A stretch of DNA of 35,782 nt from Lachnospiraceae bacterium. GTDB taxonomy: Bacteria > Bacillota > Clostridia > Lachnospirales > Lachnospiraceae. The stretch spans positions 1-35,782 of the forward strand of contig JAFXGP010000017.1 of assembly GCA_017521195.1 (NCBI GenBank). The letters run 5' to 3'. Positions within the stretch are counted from its first letter, which is position 1, and each line of letters starts with the position of its first letter. Positions 71-14,977 of the stretch are shown one piece after another. A program made the position numbers and the translations under genes. Under the pieces are notes generated by a model. The model did not search any database and was not told where the DNA came from. It worked only from the letters and a program-made list of their open reading frames with translations.

Positions 71-388
71 ATGGATAAATTCATATTACACTCCGAATAT
101 AAACCTACCGGCGATCAGCCACAGGCTATCGCAGAACTGGTGGAAGGATTTAAAAAAGGAAATCAATTTCAAACATTATTAGGTGTTACCGGTTCCGGTA
201 AAACTTTTACCATGGCCAATGTGATTGCGGCATTAAATAAGCCTACATTAATTATTGCCCATAATAAAACTTTGGCAGGACAGCTTTATGGAGAGTTCAA
301 AGAATTCTTTCCTGAAAATGCAGTAGAGTATTTTGTGTCCTATTATGTGGGGAATAAAATGCCACAATATACAGTGTTGAAAAGATAA
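71..388 (+). pseudogene. uvrB: Truncated uvrB 5' stub left by element insertion
   Basis: This is the native start of the UvrB excision-repair helicase gene. It has a good ribosome site (AGAGGA) before the ATG at 71. Residues 1-91 are normal UvrB, including the Walker A motif GVTGSGKT and the run up to EYFVSYY. The frame then leaves UvrB and adds an unrelated tail ([13 protein letters not shown]) read from the inserted element. Everything after the first helicase motif is missing, including the DNA-clamping beta-hairpin, so the product cannot work as UvrB. The complete copy at 12986 has almost the same protein sequence here but clearly different codons. The native gene would be 71-345 joined in frame to 13258-14977, giving 664 residues. 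Whether the stub is transcribed is unknown; a terminator follows at 485. Confidence 0.9.
329..345 (+). other. Left attachment core (attL), 17 bp in uvrB
   Basis: The 17-bp sequence TATTTTGTGTCCTATTA is identical to 13241-13257. It encodes the FVSYY segment of UvrB just before the conserved beta-hairpin. Flanking bases differ on both sides (G/A before, T/C after), so this is the longest shared core and the probable crossover region. It is inferred from the two junctions, without an empty-site sequence. Confidence 0.75.
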
Positions 389-455
389 TAAAAATCTATA
401 TGTTGTGGGAAAAAGTATCACAATGGAATAAAAAAACTATATGGAAGATACAATA

Positions 456-475
456 TGGGTTACCCAATTGTGCAT
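456..475 (+). repeat. Left copy of element-end direct repeat
   Basis: A 20-nt sequence beginning TGGGTTACCCA and ending TTGTGCAT recurs at 12870-12889 in the same orientation with one mismatch. It contains a small palindrome (GGGT-ACCC). Its presence near both element ends, outside any gene, suggests a binding site for an integrase arm domain or excisionase. That role is inferred from position only. Confidence 0.55.
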
Positions 476-484
476 ATTGTTAGA

Positions 485-515
485 AAAAGGGAACTTGGTA
501 AATAAGTTCCCTTTT
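485..515 (+). terminator. Intrinsic terminator after uvrB stub
   Basis: A 12-bp stem (AAAAGGGAACTT with AAGTTCCCTTTT) has a 7-nt loop and a T run. It would stop transcripts from the native uvrB promoter before they enter the methyltransferase gene. Confidence 0.7.
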
Positions 516-529
516 GTGTGGACGGGACC

Positions 530-598
530 TGGACTTTTAGTTAGAAGTTTGGTATAGTAAATAAAAGCCTGGACTTTTTATGAAGGGCACGGTATAAT
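530..598 (+). promoter_or_regulatory. Tandem promoters of the methyltransferase gene
   Basis: Two near-repeats each hold TGGACT, a 17-nt spacer and a -10 box: TGGACT at 530-535 with TATAGT at 553-558, and TGGACT at 570-575 with TATAAT at 593-598. Both are preceded by CC, so each -35 box overlaps a CCTGG. The downstream promoter would start transcription only about 14 nt before the ATG at 619, at the ribosome site itself. Confidence 0.6.
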
Positions 599-618
599 TG
601 GAAAAAGGAGGGATAAGT

Positions 619-1941
619 ATGCCTTATGCAATTGATTTATTTTGTGGAGCAGGTGGTTTTTCAGAAGGATTAATTCAAGCAGGATTTCATATAGTGTATT
701 CCTCTGACATTAGCCCTGAAGTGGAATTGACTTATAGACATCGGCACGAACAACTTGGTTTAATTCAAGGATACAACACACATTATGAAAGAGCGGATAT
801 CAGAAATCTAACTGGTGCGAATATACGGGCGGCAATAGATGAGTTGAGTTTTTTTAGAGAAAATAACATTCATGTAGATATAGATGCAATGTTTGGTGGG
901 CCGCCTTGTCAGGGGTTTTCACGAGCAGGGTTACGGAGACCTGATGACCCAAGAAATTTATTGTTTAGTGAATATGTTAGAGTAATTAATGAAGTTCGTC
1001 CCCGCTATGTAGTAATGGAAAATGTTGTTGGTTTCACAGATATGGAATTTAATGGATTTGTAAGTGTGAACGGACAGGTTTACCCAGACGGAACTGTTAC
1101 TCCAATAATCTTAAGGACGGAATTGGAACGAATTGGGTATCATACATTAGAACCAAGAATATTGAATGCTGCTGAATATGGAGTTCCGCAAAGAAGAAAT
1201 CGTATTATCTTTATGGCATATAGAGATGGAGAAATTCCACCGGAATATCCTACTCCAACACATAATGTGGAAAACTTTTTGACAATTGATGATGCGATTA
1301 GTGATTTAATTATTAATCCCGAAATTAGAAATCAATTTCAAAGAACTTTATATCAAGAACAATCAAGAAACGGAAGGACCCCTTCGTTAATTACCGGATT
1401 ATCTATTGAGTGCGAAAATCCTATGAATAATGATATTTCTTCGCATAGTTTAATTATCCAAGAACGATTTGATTTATACCGACCGGGAGAAGCTACTTCT
1501 GATTTGCGAAAACGAATTGTGGAACAAGGAATAGACATTCGAAACAGTCCTAATTTATTACAATTATGTGTAAGTAAACTCGGAATGGGAGAGAATGTTG
1601 TTATAGATAGATTTTTAAGAGCTGATGTGAGCGAAGATATGGTAGATGTTTTATTGACCAAAAAAGGGATTAGGACAAGATTGGATGGACATAGTCCTTC
1701 AGCAACTGTAGTAACAATTCCGGATGATTATATTTCGCCGTATGAACCGAGAACATTTTCAGTAAGAGAATTGGCACGGTTGCAAAGTTTTGATGATAGT
1801 TTTGAATTTAGGGGAAAAAGAACTACTGGGGGACCGAGAAGAAGAGTTGAAGTTCCGCAATGTAGTCAGGTTGGGAATGCAGTACCACCATTATTGGCAA
1901 GAGCAATAGCAACAGAAATAAGGCGAGTTTTAGAAATGTAA
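619..1941 (+). CDS. DNA cytosine-5 methyltransferase (type II)
   Basis: This 440-residue enzyme transfers a methyl group from S-adenosylmethionine to C5 of cytosine in a specific DNA sequence. Motif I is DLFCGAGGFSEG (residues 5-16), motif IV is GGPPCQGFSRAG with catalytic Cys97, motif VI contains ENV, motif VIII contains PQRRNRIIF, and the C-terminal motif X contains GNAVPPLLARAIA. The long stretch between motifs VIII and IX (about residues 205-365) is the expected target-recognition region. I chose ATG 619 because AAGGAGG lies just upstream; a TTG at 598 is also in frame but lies inside the -10 box. The gene converges on a probable restriction endonuclease at 1956 and is probably its protective partner. 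The recognition sequence cannot be read from the sequence. Confidence 0.93.
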   Translation: MPYAIDLFCGAGGFSEGLIQAGFHIVYSSDISPEVELTYRHRHEQLGLIQGYNTHYERADIRNLTGANIRAAIDELSFFRENNIHVDIDAMFGGPPCQGFSRAGLRRPDDPRNLLFSEYVRVINEVRPRYVVMENVVGFTDMEFNGFVSVNGQVYPDGTVTPIILRTELERIGYHTLEPRILNAAEYGVPQRRNRIIFMAYRDGEIPPEYPTPTHNVENFLTIDDAISDLIINPEIRNQFQRTLYQEQSRNGRTPSLITGLSIECENPMNNDISSHSLIIQERFDLYRPGEATSDLRKRIVEQGIDIRNSPNLLQLCVSKLGMGENVVIDRFLRADVSEDMVDVLLTKKGIRTRLDGHSPSATVVTIPDDYISPYEPRTFSVRELARLQSFDDSFEFRGKRTTGGPRRRVEVPQCSQVGNAVPPLLARAIATEIRRVLEM

Positions 1942-1944
1942 TGT

Positions 1945-1974
1945 AAAAGGACCGACTAGGTTGTCGGTCCTTTT
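1945..1974. terminator. Bidirectional terminator between convergent genes
   Basis: A perfect 12-bp stem (AAAAGGACCGAC with GTCGGTCCTTTT) has a 6-nt loop and a T run in both directions. It lies 3 nt after the methyltransferase stop. The end of the opposing endonuclease gene runs into it: its stop codon is at 1956-1958 and its last residues are encoded by the stem. Confidence 0.85.
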
Positions 1975-2951
1975 GATGTAGTAAGCATTTTAAAATAACT
2001 ATATAATATATTAAAATCACTTTTACAGGTTTCAATATTCAAGGTTGAAAGAATTGGAATAGAAGAACCATTTTCTAAATTGCGACCAAGCATTTCTTTG
2101 ATATTATTTGCAACACCTGATTTGCTAGGTAACCCCCAATAATTTCCACCTGTTATGTTTTCTACTCTCTTTACTGCAACAGATGTAGGAGTAAAATTAG
2201 TTGGTTTAACTGTAGGAACTGTAACAAAGGAATAGGAAAACCGTTCAGGATTTATTACTTTTCCATTTGTCCCAACTTTAATTCCGCCCTTAAAGCCTTT
2301 GGCTGAATATACCATATCCCAAAGCATTGGAATTTGAGCATTATCATTCCAATTGGTTTTACATTGAATGATATGAATTTCTACTTCATTGAATAGATGG
2401 TCGGTTATGGCATTTATTACATCGGTTAATTTATATTTACCACCACGAGGACCATATAGTTTTACAGGATTACCGTCACTAGCAGTAAGAACTAAAGCAT
2501 CCTTGTCGCAAGATAACATAGGGTTATCTGGAAAAGTGATTGCAATTAAGTCAGATTCTGTATTGGAAGTAGTTGAACCATATTTTACGGTAATGGCATC
2601 GGATATGCATTGGGGCAACAGTTGTCTTTTGTGTTTTACCACTATAGTATTTCTGCCAATCAAGCATAAATTTAGATACCAACATACTAGAGCTTCCCAA
2701 ACAGTTCCACCGGTAGAAACATCGCTTTGAGCTTCTGATTCAGTAGTAGTGGCGCCTGAAGATTTTGTGTTGGTAGACTGGAATATATCATACAAGTGGT
2801 CACCCAAATTGAAAAGGTTGTTTGCATTTAATGGTGTAATGTATGAATTAATAATTGGTTCCCAAATAGGCCAAACTTTTTTCATTGACTGAAGTTTAAA
2901 CAATTCTTCTATAGAACATTTTCTCCAATATTCAATAATATTTTCAGACAT
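1956..2951 (-). CDS. Probable type II restriction endonuclease
   Basis: This 331-residue protein is not similar enough to a named enzyme for me to identify it. Its position, convergent with a cytosine-5 methyltransferase at a shared terminator, is typical of a type II restriction-modification pair. A plausible PD-(D/E)XK nuclease core is visible: an upstream acidic position in TESDLIAITFP (about residues 133-143), then IHIIQCKTNWND with a Q-x-K pair, and a Glu in the helix GGTVWEALVCWYLN. No membrane segment or signal peptide is seen. The start at 2951 has a GAGAGG ribosome site. Its own promoter at 2982-3010 would let expression be separate from the methyltransferase. The nuclease role is inferred from context plus a weak motif. 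Confidence 0.7.
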   Translation of the reverse strand: MSENIIEYWRKCSIEELFKLQSMKKVWPIWEPIINSYITPLNANNLFNLGDHLYDIFQSTNTKSSGATTTESEAQSDVSTGGTVWEALVCWYLNLCLIGRNTIVVKHKRQLLPQCISDAITVKYGSTTSNTESDLIAITFPDNPMLSCDKDALVLTASDGNPVKLYGPRGGKYKLTDVINAITDHLFNEVEIHIIQCKTNWNDNAQIPMLWDMVYSAKGFKGGIKVGTNGKVINPERFSYSFVTVPTVKPTNFTPTSVAVKRVENITGGNYWGLPSKSGVANNIKEMLGRNLENGSSIPILSTLNIETCKSDFNILYSYFKMLTTSKGPTT

Positions 2952-2981
2952 ATATTAACCTCTCTTTGGTATTTTAATTTT

Positions 2982-3010
2982 ATTATAATTTATGATTGTT
3001 AAAATGTCAG
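2982..3010 (-). promoter_or_regulatory. Promoter of the restriction endonuclease gene
   Basis: On the minus strand CTGACA (3010-3005), a 17-nt spacer and TATAAT (2987-2982) form a near-consensus housekeeping promoter about 30 nt upstream of the start codon. Confidence 0.65.
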
Positions 3011-3167
3011 CAATAACTTGTTATGTATGTTCTAAACACAATGTTATTTTCTGAATTGTATAATTCTACTATGATGGATACAAATAAATTTGAATATAAT
3101 ATAGTGAATAAAAGTACAATAAGAGTTATAGTATGAATGAAATCGAGAGAAAGCAGGAGGTACGAAG

Positions 3168-4028
3168 ATGAATGGAACAAATGCAAGCTATTTTCCAGAA
3201 ATGACAAATTTGTTAAAAGATATATGTAATGACATTGCAAAAAAAATTATTAAAGAGGGGCAGCCGATTGTGTTAATTGATGCATTCGATTGGTATAGGG
3301 AAGTTCTGTCCTTATTTGCAAAGCAGGTAAATTTGTGTGATAGCTGTATGCTATTGCTAGAAAATGGGATGGAGCAGGAAGCATATCTGTTGGCAAGGAG
3401 CCAGTTTAATAATATGTTGTGGATTAAATACATATGTGAAGGAGAGGATGATTCTAGAGTAAAAGAATATTTCTATCAGCCACACATTAGTCAAGTTCTT
3501 TCAAATAGGAATTTTAAGAAAATGATAACTGATTTTAGTGATGAGCTGGATGAGAGATTTCTGGAAGCGGGAATTATGGAACGGTTAGATAGGGGGATTG
3601 AGGAAAATACCCAAGTTCTAATACAAGAGAACATACCGATTAAGGTAAAAAGTATTGCAGAGTTGGCAAAACAGGATGGAAATCTGTTTGGTATGTATGT
3701 GACATTCTATAATGAGGGTAGTAGATTTGAACACTCAGATATGAGCAAAACAAAGTTATATCGTAAACAGGTTGCAGAAGCATATAGTCCAGCTCAGGCA
3801 TTCGTTTTTGATTTAGGAGAGTCAGATAAAGAATGTTGGGTATCTGTATTCAGATGTTCTTTTATGAGTATATTTTTTGCATTTGAAAGTCTTTGGAATA
3901 GGGTTAGCAATAGAGAAGAACAGCTTTTTTGGAAGACTGAATATGGAAATGCGGCATACACGAAAGAAGATTTTCAAAGTGTTTTATGGAAAATGGCAAT
4001 ATGCCAAGAGATGTTAAATGAATGTTAG
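3168..4028 (+). CDS. DUF5677-like protein of unknown function
   Basis: This is a soluble, largely alpha-helical protein of 286 residues. The stretch CDSCMLLLENGMEQEAYLL followed by ARSQFNNMLWIKYI (about residues 57-90) resembles the core of DUF5677 proteins, which are common in accessory and defence regions; their biochemical role is not established. No catalytic motif or membrane segment was recognised. The start is well supported by GGAGG seven bases before the ATG. The gene has its own terminator (4047) and lies between a restriction-modification pair and another unknown gene, which fits cargo of a defence-type island. Family assignment is from memory of the pattern and is moderately sure. 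Confidence 0.6.
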   Translation: MNGTNASYFPEMTNLLKDICNDIAKKIIKEGQPIVLIDAFDWYREVLSLFAKQVNLCDSCMLLLENGMEQEAYLLARSQFNNMLWIKYICEGEDDSRVKEYFYQPHISQVLSNRNFKKMITDFSDELDERFLEAGIMERLDRGIEENTQVLIQENIPIKVKSIAELAKQDGNLFGMYVTFYNEGSRFEHSDMSKTKLYRKQVAEAYSPAQAFVFDLGESDKECWVSVFRCSFMSIFFAFESLWNRVSNREEQLFWKTEYGNAAYTKEDFQSVLWKMAICQEMLNEC

Positions 4029-4046
4029 TTATAAGGATTATTTGTT

Positions 4047-4073
4047 AGCACCTACCGAGGTAGGTGCTTTTTG
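4047..4073 (+). terminator. Intrinsic terminator after DUF5677-like gene
   Basis: A 9-bp perfect stem (AGCACCTAC with GTAGGTGCT) has a 4-nt loop CGAG and a run of T. It lies about 20 nt after the stop at 4028. Confidence 0.8.
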
Positions 4074-4148
4074 TAAGAAAATCTTGATGCTTTACTGTGT
4101 TTGATAGAGTAAGAGATAAAGAGTTTATTGGATAGTGAGATGGATATT

Positions 4149-4868
4149 CTAATGAACCGGGGGACTACTTACACTGATTTGGGGTTGTTTTTTATACTTT
4201 TCTTCCACAGATACTCTCGCATTAAATTGTAACGTATTGTAGTCTTCTCGTCTTATCGCGGTTGCTTGTATATTGTTTTCCTTGATATCATAACGAATTA
4301 TCCCGTATGGATATGAAAAATATATCCAATCATATTTTTCGCTATATTGCTCTAGAACTTCATCAAACCATACTTTAATATCATTTAATCTAAATGGAAT
4401 TGGTGGTTCATCATAATAAATAAATAGTCCTATTTTTTCGAAGCCCTTTTCTTTATAAGTTTTAAATTTTTTTAACTTATTTCTTAATACATTTTGAAAA
4501 ACATTCTTTTCCATCAGGAGAGTTTTGGTTGGATATGATAAACTTAATTCATCCATTTTCCCACCATTTGCTTCTATAATTGCTTTGCTACGTATCTTGC
4601 TATTTGCATCATTTTTAATACGATATTTAACAAATTCTCCCTCGATTTGAGCATCTTCTCTAGATATTGCTTCTGTTACTTCAATGCCCACTATTTTGTC
4701 ACTATTTTGTATATCCGGTTTATCAACGACAAAGAAATTTATATATGTATCGTTATAGCAATATTTCAGAATTTCCAAAGAAAGATATTCGACAAAATCT
4801 TTTCTATGTCTTGATGTTAATGGCTTATCGAAAGGAAACATTTCTTCTATATATTCTTGGCTGCTCAT
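4149..4868 (-). CDS. Unknown 239-aa protein, possibly nuclease-like
   Basis: I do not recognise this protein. It is soluble and charged, with no signal peptide or membrane segment. The segment VDKPDIQNSDKIVGIEVTEA (about residues 48-67) has the D...(G)IE-x-T pattern seen in some PD-(D/E)XK-like nuclease folds, but the usual lysine is replaced by Thr, so catalysis is uncertain. The C-terminal half contains WIYFSYPYGIIRYDI, a beta-strand-like core. GGAGG lies seven bases before the start at 4868 and a promoter is visible at 4906-4934, so it is probably expressed. It lies in the cargo part of the element beside restriction-modification genes, so a defence role is possible but unproved. Confidence 0.6.
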   Translation of the reverse strand: MSSQEYIEEMFPFDKPLTSRHRKDFVEYLSLEILKYCYNDTYINFFVVDKPDIQNSDKIVGIEVTEAISREDAQIEGEFVKYRIKNDANSKIRSKAIIEANGGKMDELSLSYPTKTLLMEKNVFQNVLRNKLKKFKTYKEKGFEKIGLFIYYDEPPIPFRLNDIKVWFDEVLEQYSEKYDWIYFSYPYGIIRYDIKENNIQATAIRREDYNTLQFNARVSVEEKYKKQPQISVSSPPVH

Positions 4869-4905
4869 TTCAATCCTCCAAAAATGTTATATACTTAACA
4901 TCTTA

Positions 4906-4934
4906 ATCATAACACCCACTTGCTTTTACGGCAA
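4906..4934 (-). promoter_or_regulatory. Promoter of the 239-aa gene
   Basis: On the minus strand TTGCCG (4934-4929), a 17-nt spacer and TATGAT (4911-4906) lie about 37 nt upstream of the ATG. Confidence 0.5.
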
Positions 4935-4992
4935 ACAAAGCTATTTACTTTTGGGTCATTTATGTATGAATGGTATAAATATTTTATGGATT

Positions 4993-5027
4993 AAAATAGT
5001 CAAGTAGATATCCTACTTGACTATTTT
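4993..5027. terminator. Bidirectional terminator
   Basis: A 15-bp perfect stem (AAAATAGTCAAGTAG and its complement) has a 5-nt loop and T/A runs on both strands. It would end leftward transcription of the DUF5688-like remnant at 5035 and any rightward transcript. Confidence 0.8.
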
Positions 5028-5034
5028 TGTTGAA

Positions 5035-5247
5035 TCAATACAGTGACAAAATATAGCAATGAGAACTTAATTGTTCTATTTCATTTACTTCTGTAGAATT
5101 AATTTCACGAACTATTGAGTTGAATGCCTCAAGGTCAATAATTTCATCTTCAACAGGAACGAGAATACACTCATGTATGGAAGATGGAAGTATTACAATT
5201 TTTTTATAATGTTTATTAAGTGAAGAAAAGAAAGAACGAATGAAGTA
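5035..5247 (-). pseudogene. C-terminal remnant of a DUF5688-family gene
   Basis: The reverse strand encodes about 70 residues ending at a TGA, with no start codon and a TAG directly upstream. The translation contains SFFSSLNKHYKKIVILPSSI, then HECILVPVED, and ends near LSSHCYILSLY. This matches the conserved C-terminus of DUF5688 proteins (typically ILPSSIHE-x-LLVP and a closing LSDHVY-type motif) that are frequent in Lachnospiraceae. The N-terminal ~200 residues of the family are absent, so this is a decayed gene. A terminator correctly placed for it follows at 5027-4993. Family identity is from recognition of the motif; function is unknown. Confidence 0.6.
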
Positions 5248-5491
5248 CTAATCCATCTTTATGTTTCCTTTTATAAAAAGAAGTTTTTTAAAAGCAATTT
5301 AAGTGTCTTAAAAAAAATATAGATATTTCAAGTTTTTTTCTTTTTGCCCCGAAAAGACTATGCACGAAAAAAGTGAAAAATATTTTGGAAGAAAAATTAT
5401 GTGTAAAGATTTGTAAAATAAATAGTAAATTAAATACAATTCGTAAATTGAATAGCAGATTCAGTGGACGGTAGGTGTATCGAGAAACGGT
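5248..5491. other. AT-rich spacer with a possible rightward promoter
   Basis: No convincing gene is present. The sequence is very AT-rich with homopolymer runs. TTGTAA (5411-5416), 18 nt and TACAAT (5435-5440) could be a rightward promoter. Two copies of GTAAATTRAATA lie at about 5425 and 5443. Nothing else was recognised. Confidence 0.3.
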
Positions 5492-5543
5492 CTTTTCCCC
5501 CCCTGATTATTCAAAAAAATAAGATTGAATAATCAGGGAAAAG
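5492..5543. repeat. 19-bp inverted repeat with C-tract bulge
   Basis: The arms are CTTTTCCC and TGATTATTCAA with complementary TTGAATAATCA and GGGAAAAG. Nineteen pairs form around a 10-nt loop, with four unpaired C in the left arm because a C7 tract faces only three G. No T run follows on either strand, so an ordinary terminator is unlikely. Confidence 0.65.
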
Positions 5544-5602
5544 AATACGGTGGCCGTATAGTTCGCCGGAGTTCCCGTATAATTTACTGCATATTTTGAT
5601 TA

Positions 5603-5719
5603 TTAGCAGTCATCCAAATCAATTTCTTTGAAGTTGTGCAGCCTGGTTGCTCTGTAACTGCGAGTTATCACTCTCTCTGGATGCCCCCCACAAAAGCAAC
5701 GGTCACACCCCATTCTCAT
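5603..5719 (-). CDS. Possible small Cys-rich protein or gene remnant
   Basis: A reverse ORF of 38 residues begins MRMGCDRCFCGGHPERVITR and ends with an acidic tail EIDLDDC. Its composition (clustered Cys/His, basic middle, acidic end) looks protein-like rather than random, and the same frame stays open upstream to 5815, reading CRRNCRQRGHYHYVLTFH before the first ATG. No ribosome site precedes that ATG, so either the start is unusual or this is the 3' end of a broken gene. The Cys arrangement could bind metal. I recognise no family. It overlaps a region of strong inverted repeats, so part of the signal may come from RNA or DNA structure. Confidence 0.35.
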   Translation of the reverse strand: MRMGCDRCFCGGHPERVITRSYRATRLHNFKEIDLDDC

Positions 5720-5739
5720 ATGGAAGGTCAGTACATAGT

Positions 5740-5843
5740 GGTAGTGTCCCCTTTGACGGCAATTCCTACGGCAGTTATTAGTGATTAACCCTAGGTCCCT
5801 GCCGTAATGGTTGTTTTATAGTGATTATCCACTCAACACTACC
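5740..5843. repeat. Nested inverted repeats, structured element
   Basis: An outer 8-bp pair (GGTAGTGT 5740-5747 with ACACTACC 5836-5843) encloses an inner 8-bp pair (TACGGCAG 5767-5774 with CTGCCGTA 5799-5806). AGTGATTA-type short repeats occur in the loops (about 5780 and 5820). The nesting suggests a folded RNA or a DNA origin or transfer site; neither is proved. Confidence 0.45.
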
Positions 5844-5890
5844 TATCCAGAAATGAATGTGTCGGATTTTACCCTTGTTAAATTGGCAAT

Positions 5891-5937
5891 AAAAAAGGCG
5901 AACTTCGGTAATCGAAATCGATTATCAAAATTCGCCT
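5891..5937 (-). terminator. Intrinsic terminator on the minus strand
   Basis: On the minus strand an imperfect stem with a 7-bp perfect base (AGGCGAA with TTCGCCT) and an upper TAATCGA stem is followed directly by six T. It points left, so it implies a leftward transcript coming from about 5940-6300, where no ordinary gene is found. Confidence 0.6.
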
Positions 5938-6028
5938 ACTTATAAATTTCAAAACTAATAATAAAATTGTAGGAAAAATTAAATTGTAAAATCAAGTTTT
6001 AGAAGAGAAAAAAATTTATATAAAATAG

Positions 6029-6056
6029 TTGAAATACATAATATTTATTTTATAAG
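6029..6056 (+). promoter_or_regulatory. Possible promoter of a small RNA
   Basis: TTGAAA (6029-6034), a 16-nt spacer and TATAAG (6051-6056) lie in AT-rich DNA just before a sudden switch to a GC-richer structured segment. Confidence 0.4.
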
Positions 6057-6062
6057 ATGCAG

Positions 6063-6187: not shown

Positions 6188-6275
6188 TGAGAAATTATTG
6201 AAATGATACAAGTTTATTTTTTAAGTTATATCTGTACTAATCATTTTATGATAAACGACAACAGTGAGAAAGGGA

Positions 6276-6398: not shown

Positions 6399-6414
6399 GT
6401 AGTCTGAACAGTCT

Positions 6415-6538: not shown

Positions 6539-6572
6539 TATGTATAAAAATAATGACAGAAAGGAGAAGTTA

Positions 6573-7490
6573 ATGTCAAAACAAGCAAATATAGGATATC
6601 AATTTACATCAGCTATAAATGATTGTTTTAAGCCTGGAATGGATAAACATAGTATAAAAGCATCGGAAGGGTCAGATTATCGTATATACAGCTATGCTGC
6701 TCGAGAAGATATGATATCTTTTTCAAAACAATTTTCTCATTTTATGAAGTATAATTTCCCGGAAGTTCGACAAGTAAAAAATATTACTGTTGAGCACATT
6801 AATTCATTTTTATCGTTAAGAACTAATGTGACAGAAAAAACAGTAAGACATGATATCAGTTGTTTTAACAAGTTGGAATTAGTATGTAGTAAAAAATTTG
6901 GACTTAGAAATCTTGATTGGAGAACAAATAGAATTGTTCCCAAGGTAGAAAAAGAAAGAATTAGAGATGCGGTTTTTTCAGATAAACAAATATCTCTGCT
7001 GAAGGATTATTTTGAAACCAGGGGAGATAGTTATGGGAAAAGGGCATTTTATATTGCGGAAAGAACAAGTTGCAGAGTGTCGGAAATAGCTAAATTGCAA
7101 GCAAGAGACATTAAAGAAAATCAAGATGGTACAGGCGTTCTTTCGATTGTTGATAGCAAAGGAAAAAGGTCTAGAGACATAGAGTTGACTAAGGATGATG
7201 TAAAATTGTTTAAGGATATTATTGGTGATAAAAGCGGGAGTGAGAGACTAGTACCCCTTAGAGAAAATTCGATTAATCAGTATCTTCATAGAGCTTGTAA
7301 ACATCTTGGATTTACCAATATTCTGAATGCGAAAACAGGTTATCATAGTCTTCGTAAAGCAACGATTAGACACTATTATCATAATCAGATTCCTTTGGTA
7401 GGAGAAAAACGAGCGAGAGAACTTAGTATGCTGCGATTGGGGCATAGTGCCAATCGGACAGATTTGTGTCATATATATTTGGGAATATAA
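6573..7490 (+). CDS. Tyrosine recombinase, distinct from the integrases
   Basis: A 305-residue site-specific recombinase of the phage-integrase fold. An N-terminal SAM-like core-binding half (to about residue 125, ending near SCFNKLELVC) precedes the catalytic half: Arg in ERTSCRVSEIAKL (about 168), HxxR in GYHSLRKATIRHYY (about 258), GHS in LRLGHSANRT, and the nucleophile Tyr only three residues from the C-terminus (HIYLGI). All key residues appear present. The start is ATG 6573 with AAGGAG seven bases upstream; an ATG at 6540 is in frame without a ribosome site. It is far from the attachment sites, alone on its strand, and preceded by the 50-nt hairpin, so it probably acts on a site other than uvrB (resolution, inversion or dimer control). 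Confidence 0.85.
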   Translation: MSKQANIGYQFTSAINDCFKPGMDKHSIKASEGSDYRIYSYAAREDMISFSKQFSHFMKYNFPEVRQVKNITVEHINSFLSLRTNVTEKTVRHDISCFNKLELVCSKKFGLRNLDWRTNRIVPKVEKERIRDAVFSDKQISLLKDYFETRGDSYGKRAFYIAERTSCRVSEIAKLQARDIKENQDGTGVLSIVDSKGKRSRDIELTKDDVKLFKDIIGDKSGSERLVPLRENSINQYLHRACKHLGFTNILNAKTGYHSLRKATIRHYYHNQIPLVGEKRARELSMLRLGHSANRTDLCHIYLGI

Positions 7491-7519: not shown

Positions 7520-8686
7520 TTATCCATAATTAATTTCCCATGCAATGTTCCATTTAATGAAGTCCGAAATGTATTCTATAGAAGTTAATGATGAATAATC
7601 AACTCCTTCAAGTATTCGAGAAGGAACTTTTGTATATTTGTATAAATCTTTAGGAGCTGTTTTATATTTTGTTGTGAGTTTTTCAAATGCTTGTGCATAC
7701 ATAAGCAACAGGAAAACGATATCTTCTAAATCTCCAGAACTGAGGTTGTGATAATCGGCAATTAGTTCTTCCATGTCTTCTTCGGTATAACAATATTCGT
7801 CATCATCTTCCATATTAGAAAGTTTGCTAGATAATTCATTATATTGTGAGATATAGTGTTTTAGACTTTTTTTCAATTTATTGTTCTGTATTTCTAGAGA
7901 TATGCATTTTTCTTGTAGTTCTATTAACTCAGATGCAGAGATAAACTCATTCTGTGGAAGTGCAACATGATTTTCCAATTTGTGCATTATTTCATTAAGA
8001 GTTTTTTGTTTAATTAAAATATTCTTGTCGAGCTGAGATTGTTCTTTGCTCAAGGTAGATATAGTATTTTTTCTTTCTTCCATCTCTTTCTCGAGTTCAA
8101 TTATTTCATCACATCGGGCATCTATTTTTTGGTCGAGTCGTTTCAATTGAGTTAATTGTTCTTCTATTTTCTTTTCTAGGTTTTCAATTTTTTGATATTG
8201 CTTTGGAAGGCCATTTTGTAAGGTTTCTTCAAATCGTTCCATTTTTTCTACAATGTCGCTAGAAGCATATCCACTAAAAATAATATTATGCTTAATTTTG
8301 TTTGGACTGTATGGAACAGAATGACCATATGCTCGGATAAATGAAAGGAGGGCAGAAATATCCCTTGAGGAATATTCTCGTTGTGGATAAGCACCTATTC
8401 CAAATGTCTTTAGCAGTTCTCGTAGAAATTCTTTGCGAGAGAGTTCATCTTGATTAAGAATATCCTCTTTCTTTGTTTGTAAACGAAGCAAAGAAGGTAG
8501 TTCAACATTAAGAAAGTTTGAAATGGCAACAATATGTTCAAGTGAAATATTACGTTTTCCCTGTTCAAATTTTTGATATGCAGAAAGAGATGTATTCAAT
8601 ACTGCTGCTAAATCTTTTTGTGTATATCCACGTTTTTTACGAGTTTCTTTTATATTTTTTCGAATAGTGTCCTGTATTTTCTTCAT
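7520..8686 (-). CDS. Xre-family HTH protein with long coiled coil
   Basis: This 388-residue protein begins with an Xre/Cro helix-turn-helix (about residues 5-60, including YTQKDLAAVLNTSLSAYQKF and GKRNISLEHIVAISNFLNVE). A linker is followed by a long heptad-rich coiled coil at about residues 145-290 (ENLEKKIEEQLTQLKRLDQK and onward). An acidic stretch (MEDDDEYCYTEEDMEELIAD) and a C-terminal helical region close the protein. The start at 8686 has GGAGGG upstream; a longer in-frame start at 8719 overlaps a palindrome and is less likely. It is divergent from a cytosine-5 methyltransferase gene and probably regulates itself and that gene through the palindromes between them. The coiled coil is unusual for a simple repressor and may serve oligomerisation or sensing. 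Confidence 0.8.
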   Translation of the reverse strand: MKKIQDTIRKNIKETRKKRGYTQKDLAAVLNTSLSAYQKFEQGKRNISLEHIVAISNFLNVELPSLLRLQTKKEDILNQDELSRKEFLRELLKTFGIGAYPQREYSSRDISALLSFIRAYGHSVPYSPNKIKHNIIFSGYASSDIVEKMERFEETLQNGLPKQYQKIENLEKKIEEQLTQLKRLDQKIDARCDEIIELEKEMEERKNTISTLSKEQSQLDKNILIKQKTLNEIMHKLENHVALPQNEFISASELIELQEKCISLEIQNNKLKKSLKHYISQYNELSSKLSNMEDDDEYCYTEEDMEELIADYHNLSSGDLEDIVFLLLMYAQAFEKLTTKYKTAPKDLYKYTKVPSRILEGVDYSSLTSIEYISDFIKWNIAWEINYG

Positions 8687-8711
8687 ACAAATCCCTCCAT
8701 TGCAATAAAAA

Positions 8712-8728
8712 TAGCACAATATGTGCTA
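8712..8728. promoter_or_regulatory. Operator-like palindrome before the Xre gene
   Basis: A perfect palindrome TAGCACA-ATA-TGTGCTA lies 26 nt upstream of the Xre start. The half-site TGTGCTA recurs at 8779-8785 in the divergent region. Spacing and symmetry fit a dimeric HTH operator. Confidence 0.5.
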
Positions 8729-8808: not shown

Positions 8809-8816
8809 GAGTACAA

Positions 8817-8838: not shown

Positions 8839-8860
8839 CAATTAACGAAAGGAGCAATTT

Positions 8861-9907
8861 ATGAAAATTAAAAAAAAGAGATTAGAAATCATTGAAATGT
8901 GTGCAGGTGTTGGAGAAACATCGCTAGGATTGGAAAATGCTTGTGAGAGATTTGGAATTGACATGGTAATCAATTTATTTTGTGAGATTGACAAATTTGC
9001 AACACAAGGATATAGGGCATTGCATCCTGATGTCATTGACTGGGTTGAAGATATGACCAAGGCTTCTTTTAAAGGAAGAAGATGTGATGTTTTATTAGCG
9101 ACAACGCCGTGCCAAGGATTTTCAGAACTAGGGAAAAAGGAGGGATTTAAACCTGTAGAAGGCAACGATAGTGCAATCATCTGGCATACTTTTAGGCTGC
9201 TTGATGAATTAGAGGAAAAACCCAAAATCATCTTTTTTGAAAATGTCAGGGGAATGGTAAGTAAGAGAAATCAAAAGGACTTCAAAACCTTCCAAATGGA
9301 GTTGATGAAAAGAGGATATAAGGTTCAGTACAAAGTATTGGATGCACAAGATTATGGAGTACCACAGCATCGGGAAAGGGTATATATCATTGCAACACTA
9401 GATGCTATAGAATTTGAGTTTCCGCAAAAAGAAGTCTTAAAGGTATTCTTGAAGGATATCCTTGAAAAAAATGTGGATAGTAAATATGCGATGCCTAATA
9501 TGGAAAGACAAATCAATGGAGACATTGGAAGAAATCGAAGTGTAAGAGTACATAATCCTTCTTATGCGAAAGTAGCATACACCCTTACAACAAAATCAAG
9601 AGGGCAAAGTAGTAACAACTATGTCTATATGGAAGACGTTTCTAAGGATAATGTTGTTCGTTTTACTCCTAAAAATAGTACTTCCCTTAATATGCTTAAG
9701 AAAAAACCTATTCGTTCATTAACACGAATGGAATTAGGAAGACTTATGGGAATGAAAGAGGACGATATTCACAAACTTGATTTCATAAGCGACACGCAAT
9801 TTTCTAAGCAGATGGGAAATGGAATTGTTATTCCTGTAGTAGAAAAAATATTTGTCGAAGTTTTAAAGGCATATATGGAACAAAGTGAAGACTTTTTGAC
9901 AAAGTAA
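8861..9907 (+). CDS. Second DNA cytosine-5 methyltransferase
   Basis: A 348-residue cytosine-5 methyltransferase. Motif I is the unusual EMCAGVGETSLGLE (about residues 11-24), where the common DLF-G-GG is replaced. Motif IV TTPCQGFSE carries catalytic Cys84, motif VI is FFENVRG, motif VIII is VPQHRERVYII, and motif X is QMGNGIVIPVV near the C-terminus. All catalytic motifs are present. The target-recognition region is short (about residues 195-280). Ribosome site AAAGGAG precedes the ATG. No endonuclease gene is adjacent, so it may be a solitary methyltransferase protecting the element from host restriction. Its divergent neighbour is an Xre protein that could control it. Confidence 0.9.
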   Translation: MKIKKKRLEIIEMCAGVGETSLGLENACERFGIDMVINLFCEIDKFATQGYRALHPDVIDWVEDMTKASFKGRRCDVLLATTPCQGFSELGKKEGFKPVEGNDSAIIWHTFRLLDELEEKPKIIFFENVRGMVSKRNQKDFKTFQMELMKRGYKVQYKVLDAQDYGVPQHRERVYIIATLDAIEFEFPQKEVLKVFLKDILEKNVDSKYAMPNMERQINGDIGRNRSVRVHNPSYAKVAYTLTTKSRGQSSNNYVYMEDVSKDNVVRFTPKNSTSLNMLKKKPIRSLTRMELGRLMGMKEDDIHKLDFISDTQFSKQMGNGIVIPVVEKIFVEVLKAYMEQSEDFLTK

Positions 9908-9915
9908 ATTTCGTA

Positions 9916-9940
9916 GAGAACATTGAGGAGAAATGTTCTC
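9916..9940 (+). terminator. Hairpin after second methyltransferase gene
   Basis: A perfect 9-bp stem (GAGAACATT with AATGTTCTC) has a 7-nt loop and starts nine bases after the stop. It is followed by CCCAATATT rather than a T run, so terminator strength is doubtful. Confidence 0.45.
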
Positions 9941-10076
9941 CCCAATATTCCATCTAATGTAAATATAGTATTAGTTTAAATTGCATAATTAAGGCGCTGA
10001 AATCCGAAAAAATACGCGGTAAAGTTATAGTAAGAATTACACTATTAGGTAAAGGAAAAAAAGGAGGTAAATGTCT

Positions 10077-10277
10077 ATGAAGGAAGCTACAAATATTGCT
10101 AAATTGGTTTATTATCCTAGTGAAATTATGGTTATGTTGGGGATTAGTAAATCAGCTTGTTATTCATTTTTGAACGAGACATATGAAAAGAAATCGCCAT
10201 TTCGAGTTATTAAGATAAATACTTCAATTCGAGTACCAAAGGAGGGGTTTGACTTATGGCTAAAGGAAGTTTGTTAA
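10077..10277 (+). CDS. Excisionase-like small HTH protein (Xis)
   Basis: A 66-residue protein with a winged-helix/MerR-like fold typical of excisionases: YYPSEIMVMLGISKSACYSF forms the helix-turn-helix and INTSIRVPKEGFDLWLKEV the wing and last helix. Such proteins bend DNA at attachment sites and shift integrases towards excision. AAGGAGG at 10061-10067 fits ATG 10077 (nine bases) better than ATG 10071 (three bases). Its 3' end overlaps the first integrase start by 22 nt, so the two are probably translationally coupled, as in Tn916-like modules. Confidence 0.75.
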   Translation: MKEATNIAKLVYYPSEIMVMLGISKSACYSFLNETYEKKSPFRVIKINTSIRVPKEGFDLWLKEVC

Positions 10278-11452
10278 ACAAGGGTGATAGAAATGGAGCT
10301 GCTATTTATAATGGCAGCTCTTGGTATCATCGTTATAAAGAGTTGTTACCTGACGGTACAATTAAATATGGAAAAAGAGAAGGGTTTGCCACTGCGGAAG
10401 ATGCAAATGAGAGTAAAAAAAAGTATGAGCAGGAATTTGAGAACCAAGCAAGGCGACAAGGATTGGCAACAAGGGTAGATGGGAAGGTAATGTTCACCGA
10501 TTTTTTGAAATACTATCTGGAAGATGTATTAAAGCCTACTTGTGAGCCATCTACCGCGATTGTTTATTCTTATGTGTTATACAGAAATGTAATGCCTATT
10601 ATTAAAAAAGATATTGAGATAGGACTTGTGGATAAGGAGTTTTTAGATGCCATTCTTGACAAGGTTGCTCCTCTCTCAAAGTCATCCGCAAATAAGACAA
10701 AAGAATTTTTTTTTATGGCATTAAAGCAGGCATACAGGGAAAGAAGAATTCCTTCTATACCAAACATGAAAAAGTGTCCAAGACCGGCAACTCAAATTCA
10801 GATATTGAACAAGGAACAGCTAAGATTATTATTGAAATCGGCATCGCAAAGTAATTGGTATTTGGAGATTTTGTTGGCGACATTTGCAGGATTGCGAAAA
10901 GGCGAGATATTAGGGTTGAAGTTCCAAGATTTTGATTTTGAAAATCAAACCGTGAGCATATCAAGACAACTTTCCTTATCAGTGGAATTGGAAGAAGGGA
11001 TGTGTGTAAAGAAGAGTGCTGAAAAGGTGGAAAAGAAACCTAAAAGTGATAGTTCCAATAGAACCTTGTATATTCCGGATGTGATTGTTAAGGAAGTAAA
11101 TAAGCGAAAGACAAGAGTAGAAAAAGATAAGGAGGCGGTAGGTAGCTTATATAAAGATAATGGATTTATTTGCTGTTTGGATGACGGGAGTACTAGAGGG
11201 ATTACTTCTTTAAATACATATCTTACTAAGGTGTGTAAGAGACAGGGGTTGCCCCATATAACGGTTCATTCACTTCGCCATTTATATGCAACTATTCTGT
11301 TAGAACAAGGCTATTCGCTACCTATTATAAGTGCTCTTTTGGGTCATTCTTCCATACACACGACGTTTGAACTTTATGCTGAAATTATGGATAGTACAAG
11401 TGAAATTAAAGCATATTTGGATGATTTATATGCAGAAGAGGAGATGTCATAA
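10256..11452 (+). CDS. Tyrosine integrase 1 (Tn916-type)
   Basis: A 398-residue integrase. The N-terminal arm-binding domain of the AP2-like type (YNGSSWYHRYKELLPDGTIK, then the GFAT-EDA pattern) is followed by a core-binding SAM-like domain (about 75-165) and the catalytic domain. Catalytic residues are visible: Arg in AGLRKGEILGLKF (about 214), Lys in the beta-hairpin before SNRTLYIP, HxxR in HSLRHLYATI, GHS in LLGHSSIHTT and nucleophile Tyr in FELYAEI (about 374). It is encoded immediately before a second integrase with a 1-nt gap. Together with the excisionase it probably integrates the element at the uvrB core. I cannot tell which of the two integrases cuts which strand or site. Confidence 0.9.
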   Translation: MAKGSLLNKGDRNGAAIYNGSSWYHRYKELLPDGTIKYGKREGFATAEDANESKKKYEQEFENQARRQGLATRVDGKVMFTDFLKYYLEDVLKPTCEPSTAIVYSYVLYRNVMPIIKKDIEIGLVDKEFLDAILDKVAPLSKSSANKTKEFFFMALKQAYRERRIPSIPNMKKCPRPATQIQILNKEQLRLLLKSASQSNWYLEILLATFAGLRKGEILGLKFQDFDFENQTVSISRQLSLSVELEEGMCVKKSAEKVEKKPKSDSSNRTLYIPDVIVKEVNKRKTRVEKDKEAVGSLYKDNGFICCLDDGSTRGITSLNTYLTKVCKRQGLPHITVHSLRHLYATILLEQGYSLPIISALLGHSSIHTTFELYAEIMDSTSEIKAYLDDLYAEEEMS

Positions 11453-11453
11453 T

Positions 11454-12755
11454 ATGGAAGTAGGATTAGATAAATATATAGATTATAAAGTGAAAACCGT
11501 TCAAACAATCAAAAATAATTATGGATTTAGAGTAATCCTCAAATATGAAGACGGTAGTAGTAAAACTCAGCAACGAGCTGGGTTTGCTACTAAAAAGGAA
11601 GCAGAGGAAGAACGATGTATTACCATAGGGCAATTAAAAAATCGAACCTATCTTGTGTATGGGAATATGCTGGTTAAAGATTATTTTGAACATTGGTATG
11701 AGGATGATATCAAGAAAAGGGTAGGAAGCTACAATACCATTTATAATTATGGAGGTGTGATTAGAAATCATATTGTTCCAATGCTTGGTAATAAAAGAAT
11801 GAGTGCCTTGAATTCGGCTGACATTATCCGATTATATAATAAGGTATATAAGTATTCGGAAAGTGTTGCATATCAGGTAAAGACCATAGTAAATACGTGC
11901 CTAAATTATGCAATAGATGAGAGGGCTGTAGAAGTAAATGTTGCCGATGGGATAGCATTACCCAAGGGGATAAAAAAGAAATCCTACCATTCAAGAGTGA
12001 TTAATACCGACAAGACATTAAATCACCAGCAGATTGTAAAATTGATTAATGGAAGTAAGAATACTCCTATACATTTAATGGTTTTATTTAATGTAATTAT
12101 GGGATTAAGATGCTCGGAAATTATTGGATTAAAATACTCGGATGTGGATTTTATGCGACAGAAATTAAGTGTAGAAAGGCAGTTGGGGAGAGATAAGAAT
12201 ATTTCAAAGGAAATAGCTGCGCCTAAGACCTATACAAAGCAGGAAATAGCTGTGAAAACATATTCGAGTAAGAGAGAACTTGATATTCCTGATATCGTTT
12301 TTGAAGCGATTTTAAAAGAAAAGAAAAGGTATGAAACAAATAAGAGTAGAAGAAAAAAATATTTTCAAGATTTAGAGTATATTTGCTGTAGTTCCTATGG
12401 GAGACCGCGTGGAAAAACTTATCATTTTAAGCATTTCAAACAGTTGTTACAAGACTTGGATTTGCCTGATGTTAGGTGGCACGACTTACGAGCAACAGCA
12501 AGTACTACTTTGTTGGTTGCAGGTTTTAGTCCCAAAGCTGTTTCTAAGTTGATGGGACATTCCAAAGAGATATTATGTGTTGATACTTATGGTGACGAAA
12601 GAAAAATGGCAGCAATAAAACTTGATAGATTGAATAGTTTCATTGAAAGTATCATACCGGTTGAGACGAAAGAGAATGGGAATGAACTTGGTGCTTACAA
12701 AATCGTGGTGGATGAATATATTTCCGCAACACCACAAGTCGAACAGATGTTCTAA
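11454..12755 (+). CDS. Tyrosine integrase 2 (tandem partner)
   Basis: A 433-residue integrase of the same family as its upstream neighbour but clearly diverged. Arm-binding domain: NNYGFRVILKYEDGSSKTQQ followed by AGFATKKEAEEE. Catalytic residues: Arg in MGLRCSEIIGLKY (about 219), Lys in KTYSSKRELDIPD, HxxR in WHDLRATAST, GHS in LMGHSKEI and Tyr in VDTYGDE (about 379). All appear intact. The start ATG 11454 comes one base after the stop of integrase 1, indicating coupling; an earlier frame extension from 11331 overlaps integrase 1 and is rejected. It is the last gene before the right attachment region, about 485 nt from the core. A two-integrase arrangement suggests both may be needed. Confidence 0.9.
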   Translation: MEVGLDKYIDYKVKTVQTIKNNYGFRVILKYEDGSSKTQQRAGFATKKEAEEERCITIGQLKNRTYLVYGNMLVKDYFEHWYEDDIKKRVGSYNTIYNYGGVIRNHIVPMLGNKRMSALNSADIIRLYNKVYKYSESVAYQVKTIVNTCLNYAIDERAVEVNVADGIALPKGIKKKSYHSRVINTDKTLNHQQIVKLINGSKNTPIHLMVLFNVIMGLRCSEIIGLKYSDVDFMRQKLSVERQLGRDKNISKEIAAPKTYTKQEIAVKTYSSKRELDIPDIVFEAILKEKKRYETNKSRRKKYFQDLEYICCSSYGRPRGKTYHFKHFKQLLQDLDLPDVRWHDLRATASTTLLVAGFSPKAVSKLMGHSKEILCVDTYGDERKMAAIKLDRLNSFIESIIPVETKENGNELGAYKIVVDEYISATPQVEQMF

Positions 12756-12869
12756 TATGTGTGGACAAATTACCCTATATATGGTATCATATTAAAGTGT
12801 GTATCAAGAATAAAATAGAGTGGTTTGTCCATATTGTTTTTGTAGTTCATACAGTTTGAAAATGAAAAT

Positions 12870-12889
12870 TGGGTGACCCAATTGTGCAT
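12870..12889 (+). repeat. Right copy of element-end direct repeat
   Basis: This 20-nt sequence matches 456-475 with one mismatch (TGGGTGACCCA then ATTGTGCAT). It lies between integrase 2 and the rebuilt uvrB. It is probably a recombination protein binding site. Confidence 0.55.
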
Positions 12890-12934
12890 TTGACAAAAAA
12901 TGAGAAATTGGAAACAAGTTAAGCAATCAAAAAA

Positions 12935-12963
12935 ATGACTTATAGAGAAATATTTACTATAAC
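12935..12963 (+). promoter_or_regulatory. Element-borne promoter for rebuilt uvrB
   Basis: ATGACT (12935-12940), a 17-nt spacer and TATAAC (12958-12963) lie 23 nt upstream of the uvrB ATG. This promoter belongs to the element and would replace the native uvrB promoter cut off at the left end. A TTGACA at 12890-12895 has no good -10 box. Confidence 0.45.
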
Positions 12964-12985
12964 TTTTTAAGAAAGAAGTGGCAAA

Positions 12986-14977
12986 ATGGAGTTCAAATTA
13001 CACAGTGAATACTCGCCGACAGGAGACCAACCGCAAGCAATAGAAGCGCTTGTGGATGGTTTTAGAAAAGGTAATCAATTTCAGACATTACTAGGGGTTA
13101 CGGGGTCTGGTAAGACCTTTACAATGGCAAATGTGATAGCCCAATTAAATAAGCCGACTTTGATTATTTCACATAATAAAACATTAGCAGGCCAATTGTA
13201 CAGTGAGTTTCGCGAGTTCTTCCCTGAGAATGCAGTAGAATATTTTGTGTCCTATTACGATTATTATCAGCCGGAAGCCTATGTTCCGTCTACGGATACT
13301 TATATTGCAAAAGACTCATCTATTAATGATGAGATTGACAAATTGCGTTTGTCTGCAACAGCTTCTCTTTCTGAGAGGAAAGATGTAATTGTGGTAGCCA
13401 GTGTTTCTTGTATCTATGGTCTGGGTAGTCCGGAAGAATATCAGAGTATGATTGTGTCCTTACGTCCCGGTCAGATGAAGGATAGGGATCAGGTGTTAAG
13501 AGAACTGATTGATATACAGTATACCCGCAATGATTTAGATGTGGGAAGAGGAACTTTCCGCGTTCGTGGTGATGTGGTAGAAGTATATCCGGCAGAAGGT
13601 GGGGATTATCTGATTCGTGTGGAATTTTTTGGAGATGAAATTGACCGCATAGCCGAGGTGGATCCTTTAACAGGAAAAATGCACAGGTCATTAGAACACG
13701 TGGCAATTTTCCCGGCATCCCATTATGTAATTCCTCAGGAAAAAATAAACAAAGCATGTGAGGCCATTGAAAAAGAATGTGAAGAACAAATTCGATTCTT
13801 TAAATCAGAGGACAAATTAATCGAAGCTCAGAGGATTTCGGAAAGAACTAATTTCGATGTAGAAATGCTTCGGGAAACCGGCTTTTGTTCCGGTATTGAA
13901 AATTATTCCAGACATATGAATGGGGTGGAACCGGGAACACCGCCTTATTGTCTTATGGACTTTTTTAAAGATGATTATCTCATTATTGTCGACGAGTCCC
14001 ACATTACCATTCCGCAGGTAAGAGGAATGTATGCAGGAGACCGTTCCAGAAAAACTACTTTGGTAGATTATGGCTTCCGTCTTCCGTCAGCACTGGATAA
14101 CCGGCCTTTAAATTTTGATGAATTTGAACAGAAAATAGATCAGATGATGTTTGTGTCTGCTACACCAAGTGATTACGAAGCGGAACATGAACTGTTAAGA
14201 ACAGAGCAGATCATCCGCCCAACAGGATTGTTAGATCCCGAAATAGATGTGCGTCCGGTAGAAGGACAGATTGATGATTTGATTTCGGAAGTAAACAGGG
14301 AAATAGCGAATCATAATAAAGTTTTAGTAACCACTCTTACCAAACGTATGGCAGAGGATTTGACGGATTACATGAAAGAAGTGGGTATCCGTGTAAAATA
14401 TTTGCATTCTGATATTGATACACTGGAACGTGCACAGATTATCCGTGATATGCGTTTGGATGTATTTGATGTATTGGTAGGAATTAACCTGCTTCGAGAG
14501 GGACTGGATATTCCGGAGATTTCTCTGGTAGCGATTCTGGATGCGGACAAAGAAGGTTTCCTGCGTTCCGCAACTTCCCTTATCCAGACGGTAGGACGTG
14601 CAGCCCGTAATGCAGAAGGCCGTGTTATTATGTATGCGGATAAAATAACCGATTCCATGCAGACGGCGATTGAGGAGACAAAACGTCGTCGTATTATTCA
14701 GGAAGAGTACAATAAAGAGCATGGAATTACACCTCAGACGATTAAAAAGGCAGTCCGCGATTTGATTAGTATTTCCAGAGAGATTGCAAGGGAAGAAGTG
14801 GCATTTGCCAAAGATCCGGAATCCATGGACAAAAAAGAATTGGAAAAACTGATTACTTCCGTAGAAAAACAGATGCGGAAAGCGGCAGCAGATTTGGATT
14901 TCGAAACGGCGGCTGTGCTGCGTGATCAGATGGTAGAATTAAAGAAAAATCTGAATGAGCTGACCGGTGGAAAATAA
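12986..14977 (+). CDS. uvrB: UvrB excinuclease subunit, hybrid gene
   Basis: UvrB is the damage-verifying helicase of UvrABC nucleotide excision repair; it receives damaged DNA from UvrA and recruits UvrC. The 663-residue length is normal. Visible motifs: Walker A GVTGSGKT (37-44), the beta-hairpin [11 protein letters not shown] (about 91-101), motif II DESH (about 335), motif [11 protein letters not shown] (about 535) and the UVR/UvrC-binding domain with [14 protein letters not shown] near the C-terminus. The first 272 nt come from the element and the rest is host DNA, joined in frame at the core 13241-13257. The 5' part differs from the native stub mainly at synonymous sites, so it was probably acquired from another species' uvrB. 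uvrA follows after 11 nt in the same operon. Confidence 0.97.
13241..13257 (+). other. Right attachment core (attR), 17 bp in uvrB
   Basis: Identical to 329-345. To the left, sequence is element-derived uvrB; to the right, host uvrB. Joining 71-345 to 13258 keeps the reading frame and gives a standard UvrB, which supports this as the junction. Confidence 0.75.

Follow-up and report, generated by a model that had tools for sequence, protein, structure and literature searches.

Among the closest described systems, and as far as the parts of the reports drawn on here and in the comparisons below go, the dusA-associated islands and prophages carry an integrase and occupy the 5' end of a conserved gene at 21-bp semiconserved repeats (Farrugia et al. 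2015, PMC4482086; IMEVchUSA3, PMC8409611), the SXT/R391 integrative and conjugative elements (ICEs) insert in prfC (PMC8409611, PMC4344509), and the ICEs of streptococci, which like the present host are Firmicutes, use tyrosine integrases at the 3' or 5' ends of housekeeping genes (PMC4701971). We report that a 35,782-nucleotide stretch of DNA from a Lachnospiraceae bacterium (GenBank assembly GCA_017521195.1, contig JAFXGP010000017.1; the whole stretch is referred to as the window) carries what is very probably an integrated mobile element, inserted into uvrB by tyrosine recombination with replacement of both the 5' end and the promoter of this gene.

Like the dusA islands, the uvrB elements replace the 5' end of their target gene with element sequence. 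Unlike them, they target uvrB, reside in Lachnospiraceae, usually carry their recombinases as a tandem pair, replace approximately 91 rather than approximately 35 codons and bring a promoter with an SOS box. From SXT/R391 they differ in target gene and host phylum, and many of them are small islands. The stem "uvr" is absent from the main text of the streptococcal ICE paper (PMC4701971). The window has the features of the class that restores a gene at its 5' end: the integrases (two tyrosine recombinases) lie inside the element at its right end, core repeats flank it, the native 5' end is left as a stub, and the element-borne 5' end is in frame and, judged by sequence only, has its own promoter. 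By its organization the mechanism thus appears to be of the same kind as that of SXT in prfC and of the dusA islands, with uvrB as a new target; since this target is neither dusA nor prfC, the element is by target a member of neither group. What is new here is the uvrB target, the SOS-type promoter brought by the element and the usual recombinase pair. Among the matches listed, searches of open-licence full texts for uvrB or its product gave no report of this gene as an integration site, in keeping with an earlier reading made from the letters of this DNA alone (the sequence-only reading), which knew of none; uvrB islands may nevertheless sit unremarked in the TIGER tables (1,757,053 islands).

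The window is the whole of contig C115 of the source assembly G000 (2.5 Mb, 133 contigs), which resembles a metagenome-assembled genome (MAG) and is 82% complete and 4.7% contaminated. The features that bear on the insertion are as follows (ORF, open reading frame).

71..345, + strand: native host uvrB 5' end, cut by the insertion and recognized by sequence comparison with genus-mates; its ORF continues to 388 into element DNA
329..345, + strand: attL core TATTTTGTGTCCTATTA; the same break or a close variant is present in 15 stub sites
346..480, no strand: left end of the element; the left ends of relatives have clustered TGGAC motifs
456..475 and 12870..12889: 20-mer TGGGTTACCCAATTGTGCAT (TGGGTKACCCAATTGTGCAT), a candidate binding site near both element ends, in the same orientation (19/20)
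485..515, no strand: perfect 12-bp inverted repeat, a terminator-like hairpin behind the stub (found by one of two scans)
10071..10277, + strand: small xis-like ORF of 68 aa that overlaps int1; no family match
10256..11452, + strand: int1, a tyrosine recombinase whose R, HxxR, H and Y columns do not vary among 10 sequences
11430..12755, + strand: int2, a tyrosine recombinase from the clade associated with uvrB; start codon uncertain, longest ORF from 11331
12741..12752, + strand: LexA/SOS-type box GAACAGATGTTC, overlapping the last int2 codons
12762..12790, + strand: promoter-like TGGACA-17-TATCAT with TG before the second hexamer; same layout in relatives
12791..12985, + strand: long leader of the element-borne uvrB, containing the subterminal repeat 12870..12889
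12986..13257, + strand: element-borne uvrB 5' end, terminating at the attR core (13241..13257)
13258..14977, + strand: host uvrB from codon 91, in frame with the element-borne start

As the sequence-only reading had proposed, two uvrB 5' ends flank an island, which spans 346-13257 (12,912 bp). The ORF at 71-388 (105 aa) encodes a UvrB N-terminus and departs from UvrB after VEYFVSYY, and the full gene occupies 12986-14977 (663 aa). The proposed 17-bp identical core is present at exactly two places in the window when both strands are considered, 329-345 and 13241-13257, and it abuts codons that presumably belong to the UvrB beta-hairpin motif. The two copies encode nearly the same approximately 90 residues with many synonymous differences, i.e., they are 88% identical in amino acids, while over codons 5-84 the nucleotide identity is 75% and the identity at third positions 45%. 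Joining 71-345 to 13258-14977 does restore a uvrB frame, of 664 codons without an internal stop. As to the native copy, six other genomes from this genus were searched (assemblies 72-89% complete); all of them have a single uvrB 5' end, and the stub is nearer than the element-borne copy to all six by nucleotides over codons 5-84 (78-80% versus 71-77%) and by amino-acid identity, the bit scores being tied for L006. As evidence for an empty site this is good, though imperfect, since these relatives with a single 5' end are about 20% diverged and hence not near-identical empty sites. The native uvrB promoter is outside the view since the window begins 70 bp before the stub.

Both int1 and int2 of the window are full length and keep the R, HxxR, H and Y columns, which we take to be the catalytic residues. 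The two genes overlap, and together with the xis-like ORF they read towards uvrB. ORFs that are 39-55% identical to the xis-like ORF precede int1 in other uvrB elements, and from its position and size it is probably an excisionase.

The search of Lachnospiraceae for uvrB stubs followed by integrase genes and a full uvrB, which the sequence-only reading had suggested as a check, gave 15 stub sites in 12 genera. In all 15, uvrB is left right after GARTATTTTGTNTCCTA or a close variant, and additional stubs terminate at residues 89-92; the place and exactness of the junction are in our view well established by these comparisons. Stub and full gene are present on a single contig with a spacing of approximately 8 kb in Lachnoclostridium sp. 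An138, 31 kb in V9D3004, 32 kb in Acetatifactor muris and 38 kb in Schaedlerella arabinosiphila, and the spacings in other titled records are 40, 62, 65, 66 and 105 kb; in Eubacterium plexicaudatum, which carries two stubs, the distances to the next copy are 129 kb and 7 kb. In further genomes the spacing varies between 3.4 kb and 128 kb, with one pair at 217 kb. Two elements are arranged in tandem at L136 and L155. Extra stubs, as a sign of multiple uvrB elements in tandem or in the same genome, were seen in L155, L136, G289, G165 and G052. Among the 299 Lachnospiraceae genomes of the family set, 23 have two or more uvrB 5' ends, which are not each proven to be an element.

The same 299 genomes were searched with int2. 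In 21 other genomes a protein 42-53% identical to int2 was found, with uvrB or a stub downstream within approximately 1.6 kb in 19 of them, while the remaining two loci stop at a contig edge; as a control, none of eight loci with distant integrases (L031-L038) has uvrB within 1.5 kb. A profile of 10 int2 proteins, nine of which adjoin uvrB, gave 180 relatives in genome contigs, and among the best 80 of these a uvrB start is positioned downstream of the integrase in 74 of 76 informative loci, a count that describes the int2 clade because the profile was built mostly from uvrB-adjacent int2. Specifically, 66 of the 80 loci have a same-strand uvrB that extends beyond codon 100 within 4 kb (in pieces in L096, L134 and L168, and behind a stub in L136), five have a stub only, in two uvrB is cut by the contig end, four are contig ends, and three are without uvrB within 4 kb, one of which (L150) has it 4.5 kb further on. 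In L096 a run of N is located exactly at the uvrB core (near 3968-4314), as though the assembly failed there. The expectation of a broad host range held within Lachnospiraceae, but beyond the family the evidence is thin: among 391 genomes of the class (E<=1e-75) int2 matched G000 itself, G204 of the same family and G465 of another family, and in G465, which has an int2-like pair, no uvrB is present within 1.5 kb on either side of the integrase. The uvrB genes of L105, L166 and L168 are 62-68% identical to that of the window, and these loci may come from outside Lachnospiraceae.

For the 64 of 81 loci (window included) with one unbroken uvrB match from codon <=4 to >600, the distance over codons 4-85 correlates with that of int2 (r 0.746; partial 0.703 given the 3' part), a value reached in 0 of 999 permutations, whereas for the control codons 95-176 the partial correlation with int2 is -0.02. 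These distances argue strongly for co-inheritance of the 5' end with the integrase. In nine pairs of loci chosen for near-identical int2 or 5' ends, the mismatch per 30-bp bin is 0-4% across the 300 bp leading up to the core and rises to 18-49% beyond it.

The most direct indication of movement comes from two genomes, G698 and G699, isolates of the MGBC set, which is of mouse gut. Their int2 genes and element-borne 5' ends are identical, while their uvrB 3' parts are 24% and their stubs 27% apart. They have a mismatch-free run of 104,695 bp in common (G698, C2:13887-118581; G699, C1, offset +29588), past which uvrB alone still gives an ungapped alignment, and we read this run as an ICE-like element that by its sequence was transferred very recently between distant hosts. 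Since the element is identical and the hosts are divergent, the exchange is bounded to GTGGARTAYTTTGT, 14 bp at the core; it may be narrower because within this region attL has GAGTAC and attR GAATAT. The genes of the 104.7-kb element include a coupling protein (PF02534 and PF12696 in one ORF), a VirB4-type ATPase (PF19044 and PF12846 in one ORF, cut at the end of the piece, L276), RecD2, PcfJ and a C39 hydrolase, and no relaxase was found among the 20 ORFs scanned. In the A. muris element, the nine ORFs scanned include YqaJ, a weak match to Rad52, a D5-type primase and an actin-like protein, and this difference in gene content suggests that the uvrB module rides on different kinds of elements. 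Taken together, stubs broken at the same codons, 5' ends linked to the integrase, a sharp breakpoint at the core and one identical element in two hosts agree with site-specific integration in a conserved stretch of uvrB by an element with its own 5' end, as the sequence-only reading had supposed.

Mechanistically, Int2, usually together with Int1 and the xis-like protein, would recombine the attP core with the uvrB stretch coding for EYFVSYY. Integration would strand the native promoter and the first approximately 91 codons as a dead stub at attL, while at attR the uvrB 5' end of the element, positioned behind an SOS-type promoter, would fuse to the rest of the host gene, such that UvrB, and probably also the product of uvrA behind it, stays expressed. 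Catalysis by these proteins, precise excision and transfer are presumably properties of the elements, and the hybrid UvrB is presumably functional. The hybrid uvrB segment is stop-free in 60 of 63 cases.

The proposal that the element has its own uvrB promoter is supported by the sequence and can be extended, since this promoter appears to be of the SOS type. Of 74 elements, 58 have an exact GAACn4GTTC in the 450 bp that precede their uvrB start, and 67 have a box with at most one mismatch, compared to a mean of 0.44 exact boxes and a maximum of 3 in 50 shuffles of the leaders; the 74 leaders are not independent because many of the elements are close relatives. In the window, GAACAGATGTTC is the sole exact GAACn4GTTC in 35.8 kb (0.36 expected), and the int genes of the loci, 170 kb in total, contain no exact box. 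Only one exact box is present in 82 kb upstream of int1 (62 loci), and the idea of xis and the integrase genes also being driven from SOS boxes was therefore abandoned. Two genes in G000 score above the lexA family cut-off, each with an upstream SOS-type box (G000:C48:192-791 and G000:C56:73507-74106). Where a box is present (63 leaders, GTTT allowed), a minus-10 hexamer matching at least 5/6 positions accompanies it in 55 and the extended TGn in 58. For comparison we used native (empty-site) promoters, chosen as the best matches to the 5' end of the window plus the genus-mates, where 32 loci minus L170 (contig edge) and L176 (integrase fragment nearby) left 30; such a box is present within 450 bp in 19 of these. 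The distance from box to minus-10 is mostly 32-34 nt in elements and mostly 31-34 nt in native promoters, and the median distance from box to ATG is 270 bp versus 113 bp. The SOS-box motif of the promoter is evident at the sequence level, and the simplest reading is that the element brings along a complete host-type uvrB promoter and 5' end, with recombination sites placed in its long leader. LexA presumably controls this promoter. RNA folding of the uvrB leader revealed nothing beyond shuffles (z -0.65).

Several observations, besides the make-up of the int2 profile and the relatedness of the leaders, weigh against insertion with replacement of the uvrB start and promoter. Neither an excised circle nor an empty site from the same species was seen. 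At L128 and L163 the DNA examined contains the integrase but no uvrB, although both genomes carry a stub as well as a full uvrB elsewhere, on other contigs. As for int1, it or a piece thereof is present in 72 of the 78 loci long enough to contain it, eight of these being weak or partial, and absent in six. The exact box is missing in 16 of the 74 leaders, seven of which lack even a one-mismatch box, and 3 of the 63 hybrid uvrB segments have a stop. The 5' end retains a residual correlation with the host part (partial 0.39), and in some pairs it does not keep pace with the integrase: L124 and L125 have identical int2 but 5' ends 5.3% apart, for L099 and L100 the values are 2.5% and 10.6%, and for L130 and L136 3.0% and 20.3%, the L136 gene measured here being located behind a second element. 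Finally, the int2 profile found no relative in viral_contigs. A viral origin was accordingly rejected, the phage and plasmid matches also being all below 60% identity (24-29% for those listed). One IMG/VR record classed as virus (L297, 1-500), which was picked up by a core pattern, begins at an element-type uvrB promoter and leader, followed by a uvrB 5' stub, core and left end; as it has no int2 match it decides nothing on circles.

With insertion into uvrB as the preferred reading, it is likely that the element in the window is itself a decayed or trans-mobilized cargo island, unable to transfer alone. Its remaining features, together with the gene behind uvrB, are:

598..1941, + strand: C5-cytosine DNA methyltransferase (cargo)
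1956..2951, - strand: ORF without family match (cargo)
3168..4028, + strand: DUF5677 protein (cargo)
4149..4868, - strand: ORF without family match (cargo)
6540..7490, + strand: third tyrosine-recombinase-like ORF (PF00589), separate from the int1/int2 pair
7520..8719, - strand: helix-turn-helix regulator (Cro/C1 type) with a long C-terminal part
8861..9907, + strand: second C5-cytosine DNA methyltransferase (cargo)
14989..17631, + strand: uvrA, directly downstream of uvrB, with its frame closed early by TAG at 17629-17631; named from its sequence, without family search

No conjugation gene was recognized among the ten ORFs of this element that were examined, and its cargo comprises the two methyltransferases, the helix-turn-helix protein and ORFs without assigned function; the third recombinase-like ORF is perhaps the remains of a nested element. 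Short relatives point in the same direction. Broken integrase pieces together with an open uvrB constitute the short remnants, and stub and full uvrB were seen without a complete int2, in the stretches read, in G034, G041, G110, G158, G164 and G197, which are decayed elements whose uvrB start stayed; int2 fragments are retained in G034 and G164, and also in G110. What speaks for an active element is that both integrases of the window are full length with their invariant columns kept. With respect to uvrA, the in-frame TAG lies about 75 codons ahead of a later stop and the frame beyond it is still UvrA-like, i.e., it is either a real nonsense mutation or an assembly error.

The left ends of the elements are conserved across genera. 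A core pattern scan of 38 loci gave 33 distinct left ends (24 sequence groups), in which the density of TGGAC is 6.2 per kb over the initial 220 bp and 0.9 per kb further in, and these clusters are probable arm sites for Int/Xis. We consider it possible, although on present evidence unlikely, that the element exchanges one SOS-type promoter for another, such that the left-end cargo would be placed behind the captured native uvrB promoter when integrated and behind the promoter of the element itself in the circle. Consistent with such an exchange, the first ORF of at least 100 aa after the core is rightward in 33 of 33 left ends, a stop is present within six codons of the core in 26, and a terminator-like hairpin before the first ORF in only one. 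Against it, 17 of the 33 carry a separate promoter-like site ahead of the first ORF, the left ends are not independent, and the only one with a hairpin is that of the window; moreover, the argument from orientation is weakened because most later ORFs point rightward as well (52 of 61 at ranks 3-6, 17 left ends). If true, cargo and transfer functions would be inducible by DNA damage whether the element is integrated or circular, and the transcription that damage induces across the arms and core of attR could act to switch excision.

It is rather improbable that the replaced promoter and N-terminus serve the element, by an altered or louder UvrBA, rather than merely repairing the gene. The element does have its own box, a long leader (reflected in the box-to-ATG distances given above) and an N-terminus that is 12% different, but its promoter core copies the native layout in the spacing from box to minus-10 and therefore reads as conserved native control. 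Very little favors tandem duplication or gene conversion of uvrB, with the island arriving later: two copies do flank the island, and the partial correlation of 0.39 between 5' end and host part would fit, but nucleotide identity between the copies is no more than 75%, 12 genera have the breakpoint at the same codons, the 5' ends track the integrase, and two divergent hosts contain one and the same complete element with exact ends; the last two points speak against duplication for the family. A chimeric assembly or binning error, which the fragmented and partly contaminated MAG-like G000 might suggest, has next to no credence and was rejected, as the same layout recurs on single contigs of Acetatifactor muris DSM 23669, Schaedlerella arabinosiphila DSM 106076, Eubacterium plexicaudatum ASF492 and strains 1xD42-87, D16-56 and 3-2.

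Our data point to uvrB, a core DNA-repair gene, as a site at which mobile DNA docks repeatedly in Lachnospiraceae, and suggest that a gene of nucleotide-excision repair has its promoter and N-terminus rewritten by mobile elements but keeps its apparent SOS control. The integrases and the conserved core could serve as a tool for site-specific integration in Lachnospiraceae, which are hard to engineer. Finally, the decayed copies suggest that hosts may retain a fragment of the element because they need the uvrB start that it supplied.

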